Shown here: piece after piece, positions 8,192-14,999 of the stretch | Layout of the letters: each line of letters begins with the position of its first letter | How positions within the stretch are numbered: the first letter of the stretch is position 1 | Assembly (NCBI RefSeq): GCF_004569295.1 | Contig: NZ_SPQC01000030.1 | Coordinates: forward strand, 1 to 33,778 | Length of the DNA stretch: 33,778 nt | From: Rothia nasimurium | GTDB taxonomy: Bacteria > Actinomycetota > Actinomycetes > Actinomycetales > Micrococcaceae | Direction: 5' to 3' | Notes under the pieces: generated by a model | The model's database searches: none | What the model was told of the DNA's origin: nothing | Seen by the model: only the letters and a program-made list of their open reading frames with translations | Program-made: the position numbers and the translations under genes

Positions 8192-8200
8192 AAGTAATAC

Positions 8201-8322
8201 ACCGTATGCGGCACCGCTTAGCCCTCCGACCCTCTCATTCCTCGCCTGGCGGCTCGTCATGATTCACGCCAGCCCCTCACACCAGCCCCGCGCCAGCGGG
8301 CTGCTGCGGTGCCGCATACGGT
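8201..8322. repeat. Palindromic intergenic element (copy B), perfect 17-bp inverted arms
   Basis: The 356-base gap between mazG and eno begins with this element. Arms 8201-8217 and 8306-8322 are perfect inverted repeats (core CCGTATGCGGCACCGC) separated by 88 bases. The middle carries CTCGCCTGGCGGCTCGTC and GATTCACGCCAGCC (8261-8274). The latter occurs identically at 10056-10069 and nearly at 2627-2641. RNA from it would fold into a long branched hairpin that could end the mazG transcript. It looks like one copy of a dispersed repeat. Confidence 0.6.
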
Positions 8323-8445
8323 TCGGTGGCTTTTTATCCCATAAGGTAGTTGTGACCCGTTGGTCAGAATCCCACAAAACCTCAGAAGTACTGAAGAAAA
8401 CCGTTGGAAATGTTGAATTCCTGTGTGCTTATGTGGGTTTTTTGG

Positions 8446-8451
8446 TAGACT
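8446..8451 (+). promoter_or_regulatory. Candidate -10 box of the eno promoter
   Basis: TAGACT lies 97 bases upstream of the eno start, after a T-rich stretch (GGTTTTTTGG). The same TAGACT hexamer occurs in plausible -10 positions upstream of DUF501 (14381), greA and fumC in this window. No convincing -35 box is seen at 16-18 bases. Confidence 0.35.
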
Positions 8452-8502
8452 GGGGGCATAAACGCGCGCGGGCTCCACGGCCCGATCAGCAACCGGCTGT
8501 AG

Positions 8503-9827
<1,325 letters not shown>

Positions 9828-9828
<1 letters not shown>

Positions 9829-9898
9829 TCTGCCCCCCCTCTCTAAGGTAAGAGAATAAGGACGCCCGTGCCCCGGCCAGGTTGCCCCTGACCGGGGC
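9828..9898. repeat. Left direct repeat flanking the bacteriocin island
   Basis: This segment starts at the last base of the eno stop codon and matches 13534-13602 with only a few mismatches and a 2-base length difference in the C run. It includes the eno terminator. The two copies bracket the AT-rich island exactly, as expected for a duplicated insertion site or a recombination scar. Confidence 0.75.
9871..9897 (+). terminator. eno terminator hairpin
   Basis: CCCCGGCCAGG pairs with CCTGACCGGGG around a 5-base loop, with one C-A mismatch. It is followed by TTTGCG. The copy at 13575-13601 has a perfect stem. Confidence 0.65.
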
Positions 9899-9906
9899 TT
9901 TGCGTA

Positions 9907-10129
9907 CTTAAGAGGCTTATTCATAAGGGGGTTCCGCAGGCTCACGCTCGCTGTCGACCCTCTCGCCTGGTTCGCTAGCTGGCTCGTAGGCTCGCCAGAT
10001 TCGCGCCGAGATTTATTTTCCTCGCGCGCTCGGAATCTCGGTGCTCATCACAAGCGATTCACGCCAGCCGCCGAGCCAGCAGCTTCGCTGTGAGCCTGCT
10101 CCACCTACCCTAATGAATAAGCTTCTAAG
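9907..10129. repeat. Large palindromic element (copy C) with terminal inverted repeats
   Basis: The 559-base gap between eno and the bacteriocin gene contains this element. The terminal arms at 9907-9929 and 10108-10129 are inverted repeats with few mismatches (core GCTTATTCAT). A second pair (GCAGGCTCAC near 9937, GTGAGCCTGC near 10090) and a third (GCTGGCTCG near 9977, CGAGCCAGC near 10071) nest inside. The 14-mer GATTCACGCCAGCC at 10056-10069 is shared with copy B. It has no coding capacity and looks like a MITE or similar element. Its position at the island edge is notable. Confidence 0.6.
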
Positions 10130-10228
10130 AAGCTGATAGCTTTGATCGTATTTGCTGTACTACCTGGTGGTATCACCTAAAGATAAGGTTCTTCGTCTTT
10201 TTGTAATTCCTGAGCAGTTTCAGGTCAG

Positions 10229-10234
10229 TAGAAT
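10229..10234 (+). promoter_or_regulatory. Candidate -10 box of the bacteriocin promoter
   Basis: TAGAAT lies about 150 bases upstream of the bacteriocin start. A short hairpin (CCTGA with TCAGG at 10209-10224) covers the region where a -35 box would be. No good -35 match is visible. A 9-bp inverted repeat follows at 10321-10356. Confidence 0.3.
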
Positions 10235-10284
10235 TTGGTTAAAAACCTAAAAATGTATTGTATGTCACCAAGAGGGGGAGTAAT

Positions 10285-10473
10285 ATGGCTATACACCTCT
10301 CAGGAGGGGTAAAGAAAAAGATGCATGGAAGGTGGTTGGGCCTACAATCCATGCATCACAGTGAATTATCACTAAGGAGAATATATCATGCGAACTGTAA
10401 GATTTGCATCTTCACTAGTAGTTGCGGTACTGACATTTGTAGCTATGGCACCTGCGTCAGCTTTGTCAGCTGA
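10285..10473 (+). CDS. Possible small ORF overlapping the bacteriocin start (doubtful)
   Basis: A 62-codon frame starts at ATG 10285, 4 bases after a strong AGAGGGGGAG. It runs through the bacteriocin start codon (10388) in another frame and stops at 10473. Its product would be basic and rich in cysteine in its second half (five Cys in the last 24 residues). I know no family for it. The overlap could couple translation to the bacteriocin gene, but the cysteine-rich part may simply be the shifted reading of the signal-peptide codons. Treat it as a candidate only. Confidence 0.2.
   Translation: MAIHLSGGVKKKMHGRWLGLQSMHHSELSLRRIYHANCKICIFTSSCGTDICSYGTCVSFVS
10321..10356 (+). promoter_or_regulatory. 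9-bp inverted repeat in the bacteriocin 5' leader
   Basis: ATGCATGGA (10321-10329) pairs perfectly with TCCATGCAT (10348-10356) across 18 bases. It lies 31 bases before the bacteriocin start, just upstream of its ribosome binding site. It may be an operator or a leader hairpin; the sequence does not decide. Confidence 0.4.
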
Positions 10474-10792
10474 AAACTATGATTCTGTAGCACCTGTCCC
10501 AGTTGCAGCGGCTGTAGGTGAAGATTTCGGTAGGGAGATAGCCCCTCTGTGGACAGCACTGGGTATGAAATCTCAGCACCCGGATGAAGGTGGTACCTGG
10601 GAGTATGGCTTTCAAAATGCAAAAGTTCGTTCTTACTACACTGTGAACAAGTGCCATGGTTCAACTGTGCGGGATGGGGCAGGTCGTGAATCACGTAGCG
10701 TTAATACTGCTTCAGGTTATAAATCGATTGCAGAAATCTGGGCAATCAATTCTCCCAACCTTAATCCTAGCTACTACTACTGGATTTGTTAG
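10388..10792 (+). CDS. Lactococcin-972-like bacteriocin precursor
   Basis: This is a 134-residue secreted peptide precursor. Residues 1-28 form a Sec signal peptide: basic MRTVR, a hydrophobic stretch, then APASALSA with cleavage likely after A28. An acidic, alanine-rich spacer (about 29-66) follows. The C-terminal 67 residues carry the lactococcin-972 pattern: GGTWEYGF at 68-75, a VRSYYTVNKCHGSTV segment at 80-94, and an aromatic end SYYYWIC. The founding lactococcin 972 is a peptide of about 66 residues that binds lipid II and blocks septum formation. C89 and C134 could form one disulfide. AAGGAGA lies 8 bases before ATG 10388. Base composition is clearly more AT-rich than the flanking genes. 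The following DUF1430-like and ABC genes are the usual partners of this family, which makes the call firm. Confidence 0.88.
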   Translation: MRTVRFASSLVVAVLTFVAMAPASALSAENYDSVAPVPVAAAVGEDFGREIAPLWTALGMKSQHPDEGGTWEYGFQNAKVRSYYTVNKCHGSTVRDGAGRESRSVNTASGYKSIAEIWAINSPNLNPSYYYWIC

Positions 10793-10798
10793 TTGACG

Positions 10799-10829
10799 AT
10801 AGCCTAGCTAGTGGTGAGAGGCTATTTTT
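10799..10829 (+). terminator. Leaky terminator between bacteriocin and membrane partner
   Basis: ATAGCCT (10799-10805) pairs with AGGCTAT (10819-10825), and a run of five T follows. An alternative 9-bp stem (TGGTGAGAG 10812-10820 with CTCTCACCA 10838-10846) overlaps the 3' arm. The two cannot both form fully, so read-through into the export and immunity genes could be tuned. Confidence 0.55.
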
Positions 10830-10856
10830 GGGTTAGTCTCTCACCATAGTTAAAGT

Positions 10857-12881
10857 ATGAAAGGATGGGTGAAAGTGATACGGCGTTGTATGGCTTTTCT
10901 CAGTTTTCTAGCTGCAATTTTGATTGCCTTTTCGCTTTGGCAGGCCATGCAGGGTGTACAGTATTCTTACCCCGCTGGCAGTAATATCAGTTTTTCGCTC
11001 AACACAGCAGGTCAGCTTGAAAATAAACAGACTCTCACAAAGACTCTCAACGATTTAGCTCTTAAACACGATACCAATATTTATAAAATAACCAATGGGC
11101 AATCTGAAACCACTGAAACGCAACGCAACCTCGTAGTCTTTGGAAATCCCCAAAAAATTTCAGACCTGCATATTACAGAGGGAAAAATTCAGTGGGCTGC
11201 GCCAGAGGTTTCAGGAACCCTCGTCACCTATGACAGGCTAGGAGAAATCCCTCTTAGCGGTGATTATGTACTCAAAAATAATCCTGAACTAATTAGGGAT
11301 ATACAAGAAACACTTGCTCAGGCCGGAGTAGACGTTGCAATAGGTAATGAGTTGAATCCCCTTGTAAGAAGCGCAAGCTTGGTCGCTCAAAGTGGTGCTG
11401 GTGCAGCTCTCATAGCAACAACCTTAGCCACTGCTCTACTTATGACAGGCTACTTTGCCCGTAAAATGCGAGGCTGTTCTATCCGGTATCTAGGCGGACT
11501 GACATACCGTCAAATCCATCGCCAAGATATAGGAGCGACAGTGCCCCCACTGGGAATAGGCGCTCTACTCGGGGTAGTTTTCTCAGCTACGGGGCTTTAC
11601 TCGATGACAAACGTTGCAACCCTGCATGCATTATTACCGTTTATAGCAGGAGCAGTGCTCTTCTATCTTGTAATTCTTTTTTTCCTTACCGGAGGAATCT
11701 CATGGGTTTGCAAACCGACACTTCAAGCAGTGAGGGAACGCCGGGAAAATTATCGAAAAGTAACACTTTTGTTAGTACTTTTAGCGACTTTTGCCCTTGC
11801 GCTGACTACATTCACAACTGCGAATACTTTGGCGCTTAGTAAAGCTGCTTACAGAAGTCTGACACAAGCTAAAGAGCTCGAGCTCCTTGATGATGCCTAT
11901 GCTCTTAATGTCAACTCAAGTTATTTCGACAACCCAGAAAATTCCGACCAATTGGAGCTAACGCTCAATACCCTCGAGGCGCAGGGTAACCTTTACCTAT
12001 CCCTGGCTTTCAGCACTGCCTTTGAAGGAATGGAAACTACGAGCGGGGACGCATTTGATGACATCTTTCTAGTTAATACTGAGTACTTGGAAGCAACCGG
12101 AACTACTCCAGGGTTAGAAATAAGAGAGCTGGATCAAGATACCCTTCAGGGGAGCTTCATCGACTTCTGGAAACCCCAGCTAGAGATCCTGTTGAAGGAC
12201 CTCTCAACCTTCAACCAGGCTTTCTCCTTCTATACTCCTACCGAAGAACACATGGTTCTGGGGCTGGGAACAAACTTTCACTATGGGGGAAAGACCATCG
12301 AAAGTTCTGATGCTTTAGTAGTGCTAGTTCATAATCCTGTTCAATATTTGCAAGTGAACGGGGCTCTTATGCCTCTGATGACCACAGGGAATGTCTTCTT
12401 CGCTAATCCAGAAGAGACTCTGCGAATATTTGAAGCGGCTCCCTTTTATGCTCAAGGTGTTTACTCAGCGGACAGCATCAATGACAACTCTCTTACCAAA
12501 GCCCAAGGGTTTTGGCAGGAACTAGTTTTTTACCTGCTATCGGGAATTTTGCTTGTAGTTTCACTGATGGCCTTGGTTTACACCAGAGCACTTACTTGGG
12601 CTCGGTCTCAACGCGAAAGTATCTTTATTCTTCGTTGCGCCGGTAAACGTTACCGAAAAATCGTAAATAACCCTCTACGTATTCAGGTAGGGTACGGTGC
12701 TGGAGCTTTGCTGCTTGGAGCAGTCCTTGCTATAAGCATCGGTTCCTATTCAACTGCTATAGATGGAATACAGTCCTTCATCCTTATGCTAGGGCTCTAT
12801 CTACTGCTCCTGGTATCTTCCTATATTTTTGTTACCCGTCGTGAATTCAAATCTGCTGTACTGCGAGAGGAACAATCATGA
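10857..12881 (+). CDS. Bacteriocin-associated integral membrane protein (DUF1430-like)
   Basis: This 674-residue membrane protein has the layout of the lactococcin-972-associated family, related to FtsX/MacB permeases. There is one N-terminal membrane segment (about 11-31) and an extracytoplasmic region. Four segments lie at about 175-325, followed by a long extracytoplasmic domain (about 325-560). Three C-terminal segments occupy about 562-662. In characterised loci this protein works with the ABC ATPase in immunity, export or both. The ATG at 10857 has a poor ribosome binding site; GTG 10869, with AAGG before it, is a possible alternative. It overlaps the ATPase gene by 4 bases (ATGA). The gene is AT-rich and uses several TTA codons (for example at 11055, 11631, 11634, 11772 and 11781), unlike its neighbours outside the island. 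Confidence 0.82.
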   Translation: MKGWVKVIRRCMAFLSFLAAILIAFSLWQAMQGVQYSYPAGSNISFSLNTAGQLENKQTLTKTLNDLALKHDTNIYKITNGQSETTETQRNLVVFGNPQKISDLHITEGKIQWAAPEVSGTLVTYDRLGEIPLSGDYVLKNNPELIRDIQETLAQAGVDVAIGNELNPLVRSASLVAQSGAGAALIATTLATALLMTGYFARKMRGCSIRYLGGLTYRQIHRQDIGATVPPLGIGALLGVVFSATGLYSMTNVATLHALLPFIAGAVLFYLVILFFLTGGISWVCKPTLQAVRERRENYRKVTLLLVLLATFALALTTFTTANTLALSKAAYRSLTQAKELELLDDAYALNVNSSYFDNPENSDQLELTLNTLEAQGNLYLSLAFSTAFEGMETTSGDAFDDIFLVNTEYLEATGTTPGLEIRELDQDTLQGSFIDFWKPQLEILLKDLSTFNQAFSFYTPTEEHMVLGLGTNFHYGGKTIESSDALVVLVHNPVQYLQVNGALMPLMTTGNVFFANPEETLRIFEAAPFYAQGVYSADSINDNSLTKAQGFWQELVFYLLSGILLVVSLMALVYTRALTWARSQRESIFILRCAGKRYRKIVNNPLRIQVGYGAGALLLGAVLAISIGSYSTAIDGIQSFILMLGLYLLLLVSSYIFVTRREFKSAVLREEQS

Positions 12882-13504
12882 CCCGCCTTGAGGCACAAAA
12901 TATCACTGTAGTTATAAGAGAGAGAAAAATTATCCAGGAAGTTTCGCTTTCTGCTATGCCGGGACAGATTACGGCGCTTACAGGAATCAGCGGCAGCGGT
13001 AAAAGCACCCTACTAGCTACCCTCGGTCTTCTCGTAACACCAATATCGGGAAAAGTTACTATTGATGGCCATAACACAAGCCCGTGGCCAGAGAAGAAAC
13101 GGGCCCAGTTTTGGGCTCAGAAGGCAGCCTTCATATACCAGGATTACGGAACATTGACTGATGAAACAGTCGGAGCAAATGTAACCCTCTCAGACCGGGA
13201 TTTTAAACGTAACCGCCAGACTGTCGAAGAGGCCCTAACCCAGGTAGGACTGAAGGGGCGTAGCCTAGAACCAGCAACTGTACTTTCTGGAGGCGAAAAA
13301 CAGCGACTAGGCATTGCCCGAGCCTTGTATAAAAGGGCTGATGTTCTCTACGCCGATGAGCCCACAGCTTCACTAGATCACCACAATAGCCAACTAATAT
13401 ATGACTTACTCAGAAAAAGAGCAGACGCCGGCGCTACGGTACTTGTAGCAACTCACGATGACTGGCTCATCTCACGTTGCGATGCAGTCTACCAACTACC
13501 GTAA
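12878..13504 (+). CDS. Bacteriocin export/immunity ABC transporter ATPase
   Basis: This is a 208-residue nucleotide-binding subunit of the MacB/LolD kind, of the type found in lactococcin-972 loci. Visible in order are Walker A GISGSGKST at about 36-44, the Q-loop region IYQDYG near 88-93, the signature LSGGEKQRLG near 138-147, Walker B VLYADEPTASLD near 157-168, and the H-loop ATHDD near 190. It should power the DUF1430-like membrane protein, with which it is translationally coupled (ATGA overlap). It is shorter than a full MacB and has no membrane part of its own. Its stop codon is followed within 9 bases by a hairpin and then by the right direct repeat, so the island ends here. Confidence 0.93.
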   Translation: MTRLEAQNITVVIRERKIIQEVSLSAMPGQITALTGISGSGKSTLLATLGLLVTPISGKVTIDGHNTSPWPEKKRAQFWAQKAAFIYQDYGTLTDETVGANVTLSDRDFKRNRQTVEEALTQVGLKGRSLEPATVLSGGEKQRLGIARALYKRADVLYADEPTASLDHHNSQLIYDLLRKRADAGATVLVATHDDWLISRCDAVYQLP

Positions 13505-13512
13505 GCAAAGAA

Positions 13513-13535
13513 ACAAGGTAGGCGATATACCTTGT
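13513..13535 (+). terminator. Hairpin at the end of the island operon
   Basis: ACAAGGTA (13513-13520) pairs with TACCTTGT (13528-13535) across a 7-base loop, 9 bases after the ATPase stop codon. No T run follows; the stronger hairpin in the direct repeat lies 40 bases on. Confidence 0.45.
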
Positions 13536-13602
13536 CTGCTCCCTCTCTAAAGTAAGAGAGTAAGGACGCCCGTGCCCCGGCCAGGTTGCCCCTGGCCGGG
13601 GC
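13534..13602. repeat. Right direct repeat flanking the bacteriocin island
   Basis: This is the second copy of the segment at 9828-9898. The stretch from CTCTCTAA through the terminator hairpin differs at only three positions. It holds a perfect 11-bp stem terminator at 13575-13601. The island plus one repeat copy can be removed in thought to give an intact eno-terminator-ftsB junction. Confidence 0.75.
13575..13601 (+). terminator. Perfect-stem copy of the eno terminator
   Basis: CCCCGGCCAGG pairs perfectly with CCTGGCCGGGG around a 5-base loop. In the present arrangement it insulates the ftsB-like gene from the island transcript. Confidence 0.6.
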
Positions 13603-13699
13603 ACTGCCCTTTAAGGGCGAAGGCAGGAACCGTTCAGCGGATGCCCAGTTCAGACGGTAAAATAGGAAAATCACGGACGAGAGGGCAGGAAGAGCACTT

Positions 13700-14374
13700 A
13701 TGGCACGCACACCGGGTAAGAAACCCAACCCCATCGCAGCCTTTTTTGGCTTCGGCCTGGGGAAGCCGGCGTCCGCCCCCTCTCGAGAAAAGCAGGCCAA
13801 ACCCCGCCGCGCCCGGGCAGCTAAACCCCTGCGCGCCGAGACCACCGCAGAAACCCCCTCGCAGGAGCTGGGTACCCCGGTAGCCGCCCACTCCTTTAGC
13901 GGGCACTTCATCACCTTCGCCATCGTGCTGGTGATTATCGCCCTGTCGGTCTACACCCCGCTGACCTCCTTCATCCGCCAGCAAAACGAAATCAACGACG
14001 CCAAGGCCAGCATCGCCGCCCTACAAGCCGAGCAGGACTCGCTGAACGCCCAGGTCAGCTGGTGGCAGGACGACAACTATGTCAAGCAACAGGCTCGCAG
14101 CCGTCTCTTCTACGTACAACCGGGGGAGACCCCCTACCTGGTGGTAGGCGTGGACTCCACCAGCGAACTGGCGGACGACACCAGTGCGGCCGCTAAAACC
14201 GCCCCCGAAGACTCCTGGACCACCAAACTCTGGGGATCCCTGCAGCTGGCCGCCGAAGATACCTCTGTCAGCAGCCCGAGCCCCGACGCCTCAAGCAGCC
14301 CGAGCCCCGACGCCTCAAGCAGCCCTAGCGCCAGCCCCTCAGCTAGCTCTAGCGCTACCGCCACCAACCGCTAG
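13700..14374 (+). CDS. Septum formation initiator (FtsB/DivIC-like) protein
   Basis: This is a bitopic cell-division protein. It has a basic, proline-rich cytoplasmic tail (1-68) and one membrane segment at about 70-91 (FITFAIVLVIIALSVYTPLTSF). An extracytoplasmic coiled coil follows at about 93-125, then the family segment DDNYVKQQARSRLFYVQPGE at 124-143. By family it bridges FtsL and FtsQ in the divisome. The 224 residues include a Ser/Pro/Ala tail (about 188-224) encoded partly by a 24-bp tandem repeat. It is followed by DUF501 and ppx, the same order as after eno in mycobacteria. GGCAGGAAGAG precedes ATG 13700. Confidence 0.9.
   Translation: MARTPGKKPNPIAAFFGFGLGKPASAPSREKQAKPRRARAAKPLRAETTAETPSQELGTPVAAHSFSGHFITFAIVLVIIALSVYTPLTSFIRQQNEINDAKASIAALQAEQDSLNAQVSWWQDDNYVKQQARSRLFYVQPGETPYLVVGVDSTSELADDTSAAAKTAPEDSWTTKLWGSLQLAAEDTSVSSPSPDASSSPSPDASSSPSASPSASSSATATNR
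14270..14317 (+). repeat. 24-bp tandem repeat, two copies, inside the ftsB-like gene
   Basis: Two identical 24-bp units (14270-14293, 14294-14317) encode SSPSPDAS twice, followed by a decayed third unit. The length is a multiple of three, so copy-number changes would keep the frame and vary only the flexible tail. Confidence 0.8.
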
Positions 14375-14417
14375 CGCCGGTAGACTAGAGAAACCAGCAC
14401 CATCTTCTAAGGACACC

Positions 14418-14999
14418 ATGACCACACCCGCGAGCACCGACCACCAGCCCCATGGCTTCGGCGTCACCGCCGAAACCCTCACCCCCACCGAGCTTGACCT
14501 GAAAGTGCTCTCAGCCCAGCTGGGGCGCACTGTGCGCGATGTCGTAGAAATCCCGGCCCGCTGCGTCTGCGGCAACCCCCTGGTAGCCGCCACCGCCCCG
14601 CGCCTGGCCAACGGCTCACCCTTCCCCACCACCTTCTACCTGGCCCACCCCGTCATCACCGCCGCAGCCTCCCGCCTCGAAGCGGAGGGCGCCATGTACG
14701 AGATGACCGATGAGGTCACCGACGACGAGAGCAAGGCTGCCGCCTACCGGGGCGCCCACGAGAACTACCTGGCAGAGCGCGAACGCATTCGCGTCAAGGC
14801 CGGTCTAGAAGAAGTGCCCGAAATTGAGGGCGTTTCAGCCGGTGGCATGCCCACCCGCGTCAAGTGCCTGCATGCCGTGCTCGGCCACACCCTAGCCGTT
14901 GGCCGCGGCATCAACCCCTACGGCGACGCAACCCTCGACCTCATTGCTGAGTGGTGGACCCCCGAAACTTGCCACTGCGACCCCGACTGGCGCGACTAG
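14418..14999 (+). CDS. DUF501 family protein
   Basis: This is an actinobacterial conserved protein of unknown function, 193 residues from ATG 14418. I chose that start over upstream in-frame codons because CTAAGGACACC gives a well-placed ribosome binding site, and because upstream starts would overlap the ftsB-like gene. Residues 30-50 (LSAQLGRTVRDVVEIPARCVCG) and the NGSPFPTTFYLAHP segment at 65-78 are typical of the family. A cysteine pair (C49, C51) near the N-terminus and CHCD near the C-terminus could form a metal site; this is inference. There is no membrane segment. TAGACT at 14381-14386 may be a -10 box giving it a promoter of its own. It lies between the ftsB-like gene and ppx, as in Mycobacterium. 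Confidence 0.9.
   Translation: MTTPASTDHQPHGFGVTAETLTPTELDLKVLSAQLGRTVRDVVEIPARCVCGNPLVAATAPRLANGSPFPTTFYLAHPVITAAASRLEAEGAMYEMTDEVTDDESKAAAYRGAHENYLAERERIRVKAGLEEVPEIEGVSAGGMPTRVKCLHAVLGHTLAVGRGINPYGDATLDLIAEWWTPETCHCDPDWRD

Follow-up and report, generated by a model that had tools for sequence, protein, structure and literature searches.

The 33,778-nucleotide window analysed here, contig NZ_SPQC01000030.1 of Rothia nasimurium (genome G000), carries three + strand genes between eno and a DivIC-family gene, encoding a bacteriocin precursor of the lactococcin-972 family, a large membrane protein and an ATP-binding cassette (ABC) ATPase (Table 1). A prediction made from the sequence alone, referred to below as the original prediction, had described an AT-rich three-gene bacteriocin unit of this family, with an ATGA overlap coupling the membrane and ABC genes, and with eno and an ftsB-like gene as its neighbours. 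The list of open reading frames (ORFs) and the base composition bore out the gene positions, the AT-richness and the coupling; the three-gene unit was upheld, and both neighbours matched their families. The unit itself is wider than had been proposed, lying between two copies of the eno terminator segment, and three further features were added to the original description: 67-bp flanking direct repeats, a 214-bp miniature inverted-repeat transposable element (MITE) and a hairpin in the 5'-leader. We are nearly certain of the lactococcin-972 family identity and of the operon anatomy, and we consider the whole likely to be a horizontally acquired, self-contained bacteriocin operon that is segregating and decaying in the R. 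nasimurium group.

Table 1 Features at the eno-divIC junction of the window
Feature	Position	Strand	Remarks
eno (enolase)	8548..9828	+	left neighbour; TIGR01060, 684 bits
Left copy of eno terminator segment	9837..9903	+	hairpin with stem mismatch; -27.7 kcal/mol, z -1.9
MITE, 214 bp	9912-10125	.	target-site duplication TAA at 9909-9911 and 10126-10128; limits and duplication read by eye
5'-leader stem-loop	10320-10357	+	10-bp perfect inverted repeat; just ahead of the precursor ribosome site
Lactococcin-972-family precursor gene	10388..10792	+	134 aa; PF09683, E 1e-8
Membrane protein gene	10857..12881	+	674 aa; about 8 transmembrane stretches, two large loops; from hydropathy and homology
ABC ATPase gene	12878..13504	+	208 aa; PF00005, E 7e-30; Walker A at residue 36, LSGGE at 136
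Hairpin 3' of ABC gene, possible operon terminator	13513..13535	+	fold of 13500-13541, z -2.8
Right copy of eno terminator segment	13541..13607	+	perfect 14-bp stem; -42 kcal/mol, z -7.0
DivIC/FtsB-like septum protein gene	13700..14374	+	right neighbour; PF04977, E 4.3e-16

The precursor had been expected to belong to the lactococcin-972 family and to carry a Sec-type signal. A hidden Markov model search returned the family match, with PF09683 covering residues 68-129 at 36 bits against a gathering cut-off of 22, and the closest solved structure was PDB 9hkj ('Lactococcin 972 family bacteriocin'), aligned over residues 55-131 with an E of 3.3e-15; no paper naming 9hkj was found among open-licence papers. 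By hydropathy the N terminus is signal-like, peaking at residues 10-28 after basic residues, and is followed by a pro-region and a core at residues 55-134. The 9hkj chain starts at a tryptophan aligned with W55 of the precursor, and the homologue from the Rothia genome G005 aligns to 9hkj likewise, so that the mature protein probably starts near W55, after the pro-region. A cysteine within a CHG(S/A)(T/S) motif and a C-terminal cysteine are also found, by eye, in the homologues L066, L069, L096, L097, L103 and L109, and in L144 from another taxonomic family; the first of the two is missing, again by eye, in L099, L101, L106, L108, L111 and L112. The aligned parts of 9hkj and of 2LGN (lactococcin 972) show no cysteine. 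2LGN gave no match to the window precursor at E 1 and matched the homologue L103 at 2.4e-4. Other PDB matches of the precursor, 6xi1 (flagellin hook protein, 5.1e-4, no stretch passing alone) and 8ii8 (0.77), were taken as chance, and a single-sequence AlphaFold model of the core was too poor for use (mean predicted local distance difference test score, pLDDT, 38.8).

In the membrane protein, 11 listed hydropathy windows merge into 8 transmembrane (TM) stretches in the order TM1-loop-TM2,3,4 / TM5-loop-TM6,7,8, an order that we take to resemble that of FtsX/LolC-type permeases. The protein is homologous to that of the lactococcin-972 locus in G005 (E 8.6e-32), which in turn matches TIGR01654 at 7.5e-5. 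The label 'DUF1430-like' given to it originally did not hold for the window protein itself, which matches neither DUF1430 nor TIGR01654, though homologues do: among 16 aligned membrane proteins scanned, the window's included, TIGR01654 was matched by 12 and DUF1430 by 2. This alignment (A1) takes in 16 of the 28 loci seen by then, omitting the split or incomplete G017, G018, L068, L098, L112 and L113, the repeats or near repeats (the second of L096, both of L097, and L107), and L101 and L109, whose frames are unsettled. A PDB search with a profile of the 16 proteins gave chance-like matches only (best E 0.031), and the single-sequence AlphaFold model of the membrane protein was likewise too poor for use (mean pLDDT 40.5). 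Searches across 295 genomes of the taxonomic family detected lactococcin-972 genes in 18, and the gene order of the window (precursor, membrane protein, ABC ATPase) is repeated in other lactococcin-972 loci.

The composition of the three genes sets them apart from their surroundings. Their GC content is 45-49% versus 60-65% in the neighbouring genes, and in 500-base blocks it is 0.44-0.50 across 10001-13500 versus 0.53-0.68 in the rest of the window. At third codon positions, GC is 0.34, 0.41 and 0.43 for the precursor, membrane and ABC genes, versus 0.70 for eno and 0.79 for the DivIC gene. Within the genus Rothia, eno was found in 34 of 35 genomes, and the junctions examined were 33 fetched ones and that of the window. 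The island was present at 4 of these 34 junctions: the window (G000), G004 (labelled 'Candidatus Rothia avicola'), and G017 and G018 (both labelled R. nasimurium). In the empty sites of G005, G016, G019, G028 and G030, eno and divIC are 169-170 bp apart, in agreement with the proposal that the insertion splits a gene pair. Neither outcome named as refuting the original prediction occurred, the precursor having its family match and the island being absent from most junctions, with a deviant composition.

The island is flanked by 67-bp direct repeats (62/67 identical), the next best site for the segment on either strand of the window reaching 36/67. The duplicated segment is the stretch behind the eno stop codon, with two hairpins included. 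One copy was present in 5/5 empty sites where the segment was recognised (G005, G016, G019, G028 and G030) and two in 4/4 carriers (G000, G004, G017 and G018), the second copy of G017 lying on a separate contig (C10), where it follows the remainder of the membrane gene and an open ABC frame. The flanking repeats duplicate a target that is single in empty relatives, as is characteristic of an integrase-borne genomic island. In a genus-wide search with the right copy, 10 of 35 genomes gave matches, and the copy counts say nothing on the rest, which were without a match; the long matches (at least 60 bases) were two per carrier and one per empty site, each following eno or the island, and all others, which include every match in G020, measured 25 to 37 bases. 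A stem mismatch marks the left copy in 3/4 carriers and, in G017, the right copy as well. G017 has a stem variant in each copy that its close relative G018 shows in the left one alone, which suggests exchange between the copies. No integrase or transposase was seen among the ORFs of at least 50 aa in 9837-13607, those beyond the three genes being judged by eye, without a search. A single crossover with a circle bearing one copy, a one-sided entry anchored in homology, and an integrase acting in trans would all fit this picture.

Between the left terminator copy and the precursor gene lies the MITE, which has inverted ends, a target-site duplication, no gene, many copies and a related autonomous insertion sequence (IS), as expected of a MITE. 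The window genome holds 58 full or partial matching pieces, this one included, some being two pieces of one copy. The first 12 bases of the MITE are those of an IS end in G017, and copies of this IS end occur in G000, G017 and G018; the transposase adjoining it, examined in a single G018 copy, contains DDE_Tnp_4 and HTH_Tnp_4 domains. Three of the four carriers have the MITE on the eno side of the precursor, or of where the precursor once stood, and G004 has none. When the island DNA was compared with plasmids, a single Rothia plasmid matched, over 71 bases inside the MITE. The leader hairpin downstream folds better than chance (10315-10392, z -4.09; 0/200 shuffles as good) and is identical in G000, G004 and G017, with two substitutions in G018. 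It has no Rfam match, nor has any other part of 8200-14500.

Two of the four carriers, G017 and G018, look broken. In G018, a second MITE directly adjoins the leader hairpin on its 3' side, the precursor gene is absent (no match), and stops interrupt the membrane gene at codons 4, 6 and 29; past these a 644-aa frame, lacking the first TM stretch, remains open, as does the ABC frame. Such combined loss and damage, of precursor and membrane gene respectively, fits a function shared by the two. In G017, the precursor is intact and the ABC frame open (208 aa, 202/208 residues as in the window), and the membrane gene appears to be split by an IS at codons 556-559 with a 3-base duplication, a reading drawn from two contig ends that could be an assembly fault. 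The window precursor shows 95% identity to that of G004 and 98% to that of G017, neither of which contains a stop.

PMC11796350 cites lactococcin 972 as a lipid II binder that blocks septation. Relying on homology for this mechanism, we propose the following model. The precursor would be exported by Sec, with removal of the signal peptide and then of the short pro-region, giving a mature protein of about 80 residues that starts near W55 and has a Cys89-Cys134 pair. This protein would bind lipid II of related Gram-positive cells and block septum formation; for such killing of neighbours we see about an even chance. The membrane protein and the ATPase may assemble into an ABC complex of FtsX/LolCDE type, handling the peptide at the membrane. 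Because export by Sec requires no transporter, self-protection or release would be the most likely task of this complex, and the odds that the pair confers immunity seem to us roughly balanced. The operon sits in the eno-divIC junction with a second terminator copy, where relatives without it have one; with this arrangement, both eno and divIC would be insulated from the operon, and recombination between the copies could restore the empty site exactly. Erosion has cost G018 its precursor and the beginning of its membrane gene, and an IS may have done similar damage in G017.

Several observations weigh against this reading. The precursor matches no NCBIfam model, TIGR01653 included, even at E 10, the G005 homologue reaching 2.4e-5 and 24.5 bits with TIGR01653 (cut-off 32.1), and for the membrane protein, Pfam and NCBIfam searches relaxed to E 10 gave nothing meaningful (best 0.24 and 0.54, unrelated models). 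The ABC protein had been expected to match L_ocin_972_ABC (TIGR03608); this was indeed its best NCBIfam model, at a score of 172 bits that falls below the cut-off of 254.85. No sigma-70-like promoter was found on the + strand of 9820-13720, where the search gave 2 sites, both on the - strand, with 4.5 expected by chance. As to lateral spread, the membrane gene is 95.5-96.9% identical to that of G000 in G004, G017 and G018, versus 92.6-93.4% upstream and 93.0-94.3% downstream for the long flanks of the same pairs, a weak sign that recombination may have carried the island between lineages. Close to the island, the flanks reach about its own level of identity (eno 97.2-98.1%; divIC to ppx 95.5% for G004 and 95.7% for G018), the island at 10127-13540 being 95.7% identical in G004, 97.2% in G017 and 93.8% in G018, with its deletion and MITE, so this argument from identity is weak. 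Finally, an intact precursor beside an apparently split membrane gene in G017 is awkward for a simple immunity role, unless the peptide is unmade there or the ABC pair exports it.

This last point bears on an alternative we regard as possible though doubtful, namely that the ABC pair exports or matures the peptide instead of conferring immunity. TIGR03608 bears the name 'putative bacteriocin export ABC transporter', and the state of G017 would be tolerable for an export gene and not for a sole immunity gene. Against export, the precursor has its own signal-like N terminus, and the lactococcal orf2-orf3 genes are described as immunity genes (PMC4055356), though PMC11796350 states that no lactococcin-972-type locus has had the functions of its B and C genes verified.

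It is also conceivable, and in our view unlikely, that the operon came in as a bacteriocin unit and is now a decaying relic, kept by linkage only, with no more selective benefit. The missing precursor and early stops of G018 (644 aa still open), the IS that appears to split the G017 membrane gene, and the MITEs ahead of the precursor or its former place in 3/4 carriers would agree with this. All three frames are nevertheless open in the window genome, and the stop-free precursors of G004 and G017 and the leader hairpin unchanged in G000, G004 and G017 speak against it.

Acquisition, as we favour it, also has to be set against an ancestral operon at this place that was lost in most relatives. 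Upstream and downstream flank trees disagree and the carriers form no clean clade, so the trees do not tell gain from loss inside the close group, where the operon may have been lost repeatedly. The long flanks of G005, an empty site, are 94.4 and 94.9% identical to those of G000, closer than those of any other carrier (92.6-94.3%). The single terminator copy in the more distant G016 and in four close relatives, together with the AT-rich composition, makes ancestry improbable nonetheless. As regards a source, searches found no close donor at order level with the membrane protein (12/396 genomes, the window's included) or at phylum level with the precursor core (3/396 genomes, the window's included). 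The best precursor outside, in G813, is 53% identical over 80 aa, and its locus is more GC-rich. Searches of plasmids with the precursor and the membrane protein (E 1e-3) and of phages with the precursor (0.01) found no relatives.

The original prediction had also drawn attention to the placement beside a division gene, which gained no support. Judged from protein matches in the 32 fetched genomes that have eno and divIC on a single contig (G017 and the window left out), the eno-to-divIC gap exceeds 800 bp in 7/32 and 500 bp in 9/32, those of 500-800 bp being G002 and G006; at the next two junctions the gap exceeds 500 bp in 0/32, a weak control, both junctions probably lying within one operon. 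Two of the seven gaps above 800 bp hold the island (G004 and G018) and five hold other cargo. That the same junction carries unrelated cargo in other Rothia indicates that the closeness to a division gene is probably incidental, and co-regulation of the island with divIC, or an action on it, was considered and dropped as very improbable, having adjacency alone in its favour and, besides the other cargo, a right terminator copy that folds more strongly than the left and separates the island from divIC.

Among these other cargoes, that of G023 (L042 4300-5121) is an Abi_2 protein (1.6e-6) that also matches the defence model PD-T4-5 (7.5e-10). Core-2/I-Branching glycosyltransferases occupy the junctions of G014 and G027 (L047 and L052; 9.9e-15 and 6.7e-13), and small ORFs those of G008 and G020, the two ORFs of G008 being without a Pfam or PADLOC match.

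A more general proposal would make the eno-divIC junction of Rothia an integration spot with the terminator as recombination site, where recombinase-less bacteriocin cassettes enter and leave between duplicated segments and the neighbours stay insulated throughout; we think this rather unlikely to hold. The terminator-flanked insertion itself shows how a small cassette can occupy a site between core genes without wiring to either.

The cassette type is known; its placement, its gain and loss and its decay among relatives are the informative part. The lactococcin 972 operon of Lactococcus lactis pBL1 (lcn972-orf2-orf3) likewise has a secreted precursor, a PF09683 core and two partner genes, described as a putative ABC transporter (PMC4055356). 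In contrast, the window precursor is longer, with a pro-region and two cysteines, the window operon is chromosomal between terminator repeats, and its membrane protein is too divergent for the family models. Streptococcin B (scbABC) and the mediterrocin clusters are active family members with a membrane and an ABC partner (PMC11796350, PMC12345188). Competence control is reported for streptococcin B in a majority of isolates, while no regulator gene is seen in the ORF list of the window island. Four Corynebacterium species reportedly carry lactococcin-972 homologues (PMC12188740). No description of the present locus was found in the open-licence literature on Rothia and lactococcin, the excerpts of PMC8765612 included, and the text of a paper on three new Rothia species (PMC13347742) contains neither 'lactococcin' nor 'bacteriocin'. 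With the partner-gene roles stated as unverified in PMC11796350, the Rothia group is useful as a set of natural variants for that question, comprising intact operons, one without a precursor, one with an apparently split membrane gene, and clean empty sites.

G005, empty at the eno-divIC junction, has a second lactococcin-972 locus (L066), alike in gene order and in a precursor core that is 58% identical over 96 aa. L066 differs in its chromosomal place, in an extra 116-aa gene behind the ABC gene and in a membrane protein only about 23% identical. In L066 5473-5875, the signal-like start is out of frame with the mature part, the shift falling around a C run, possibly through phase variation or a sequencing error. 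A fourth operon gene of some Rothia lactococcin-972 loci, at L066 8652-9002 and at L069 9135-9584, encodes 116-149 aa with one hydrophobic stretch by eye and was not seen in the window; the L066 protein has no Pfam or NCBIfam match. Outside the island, tandem 24-bp repeats occupy 14270-14341, close to the 3' end of the DivIC gene and inside its Ser/Pro-rich tail.

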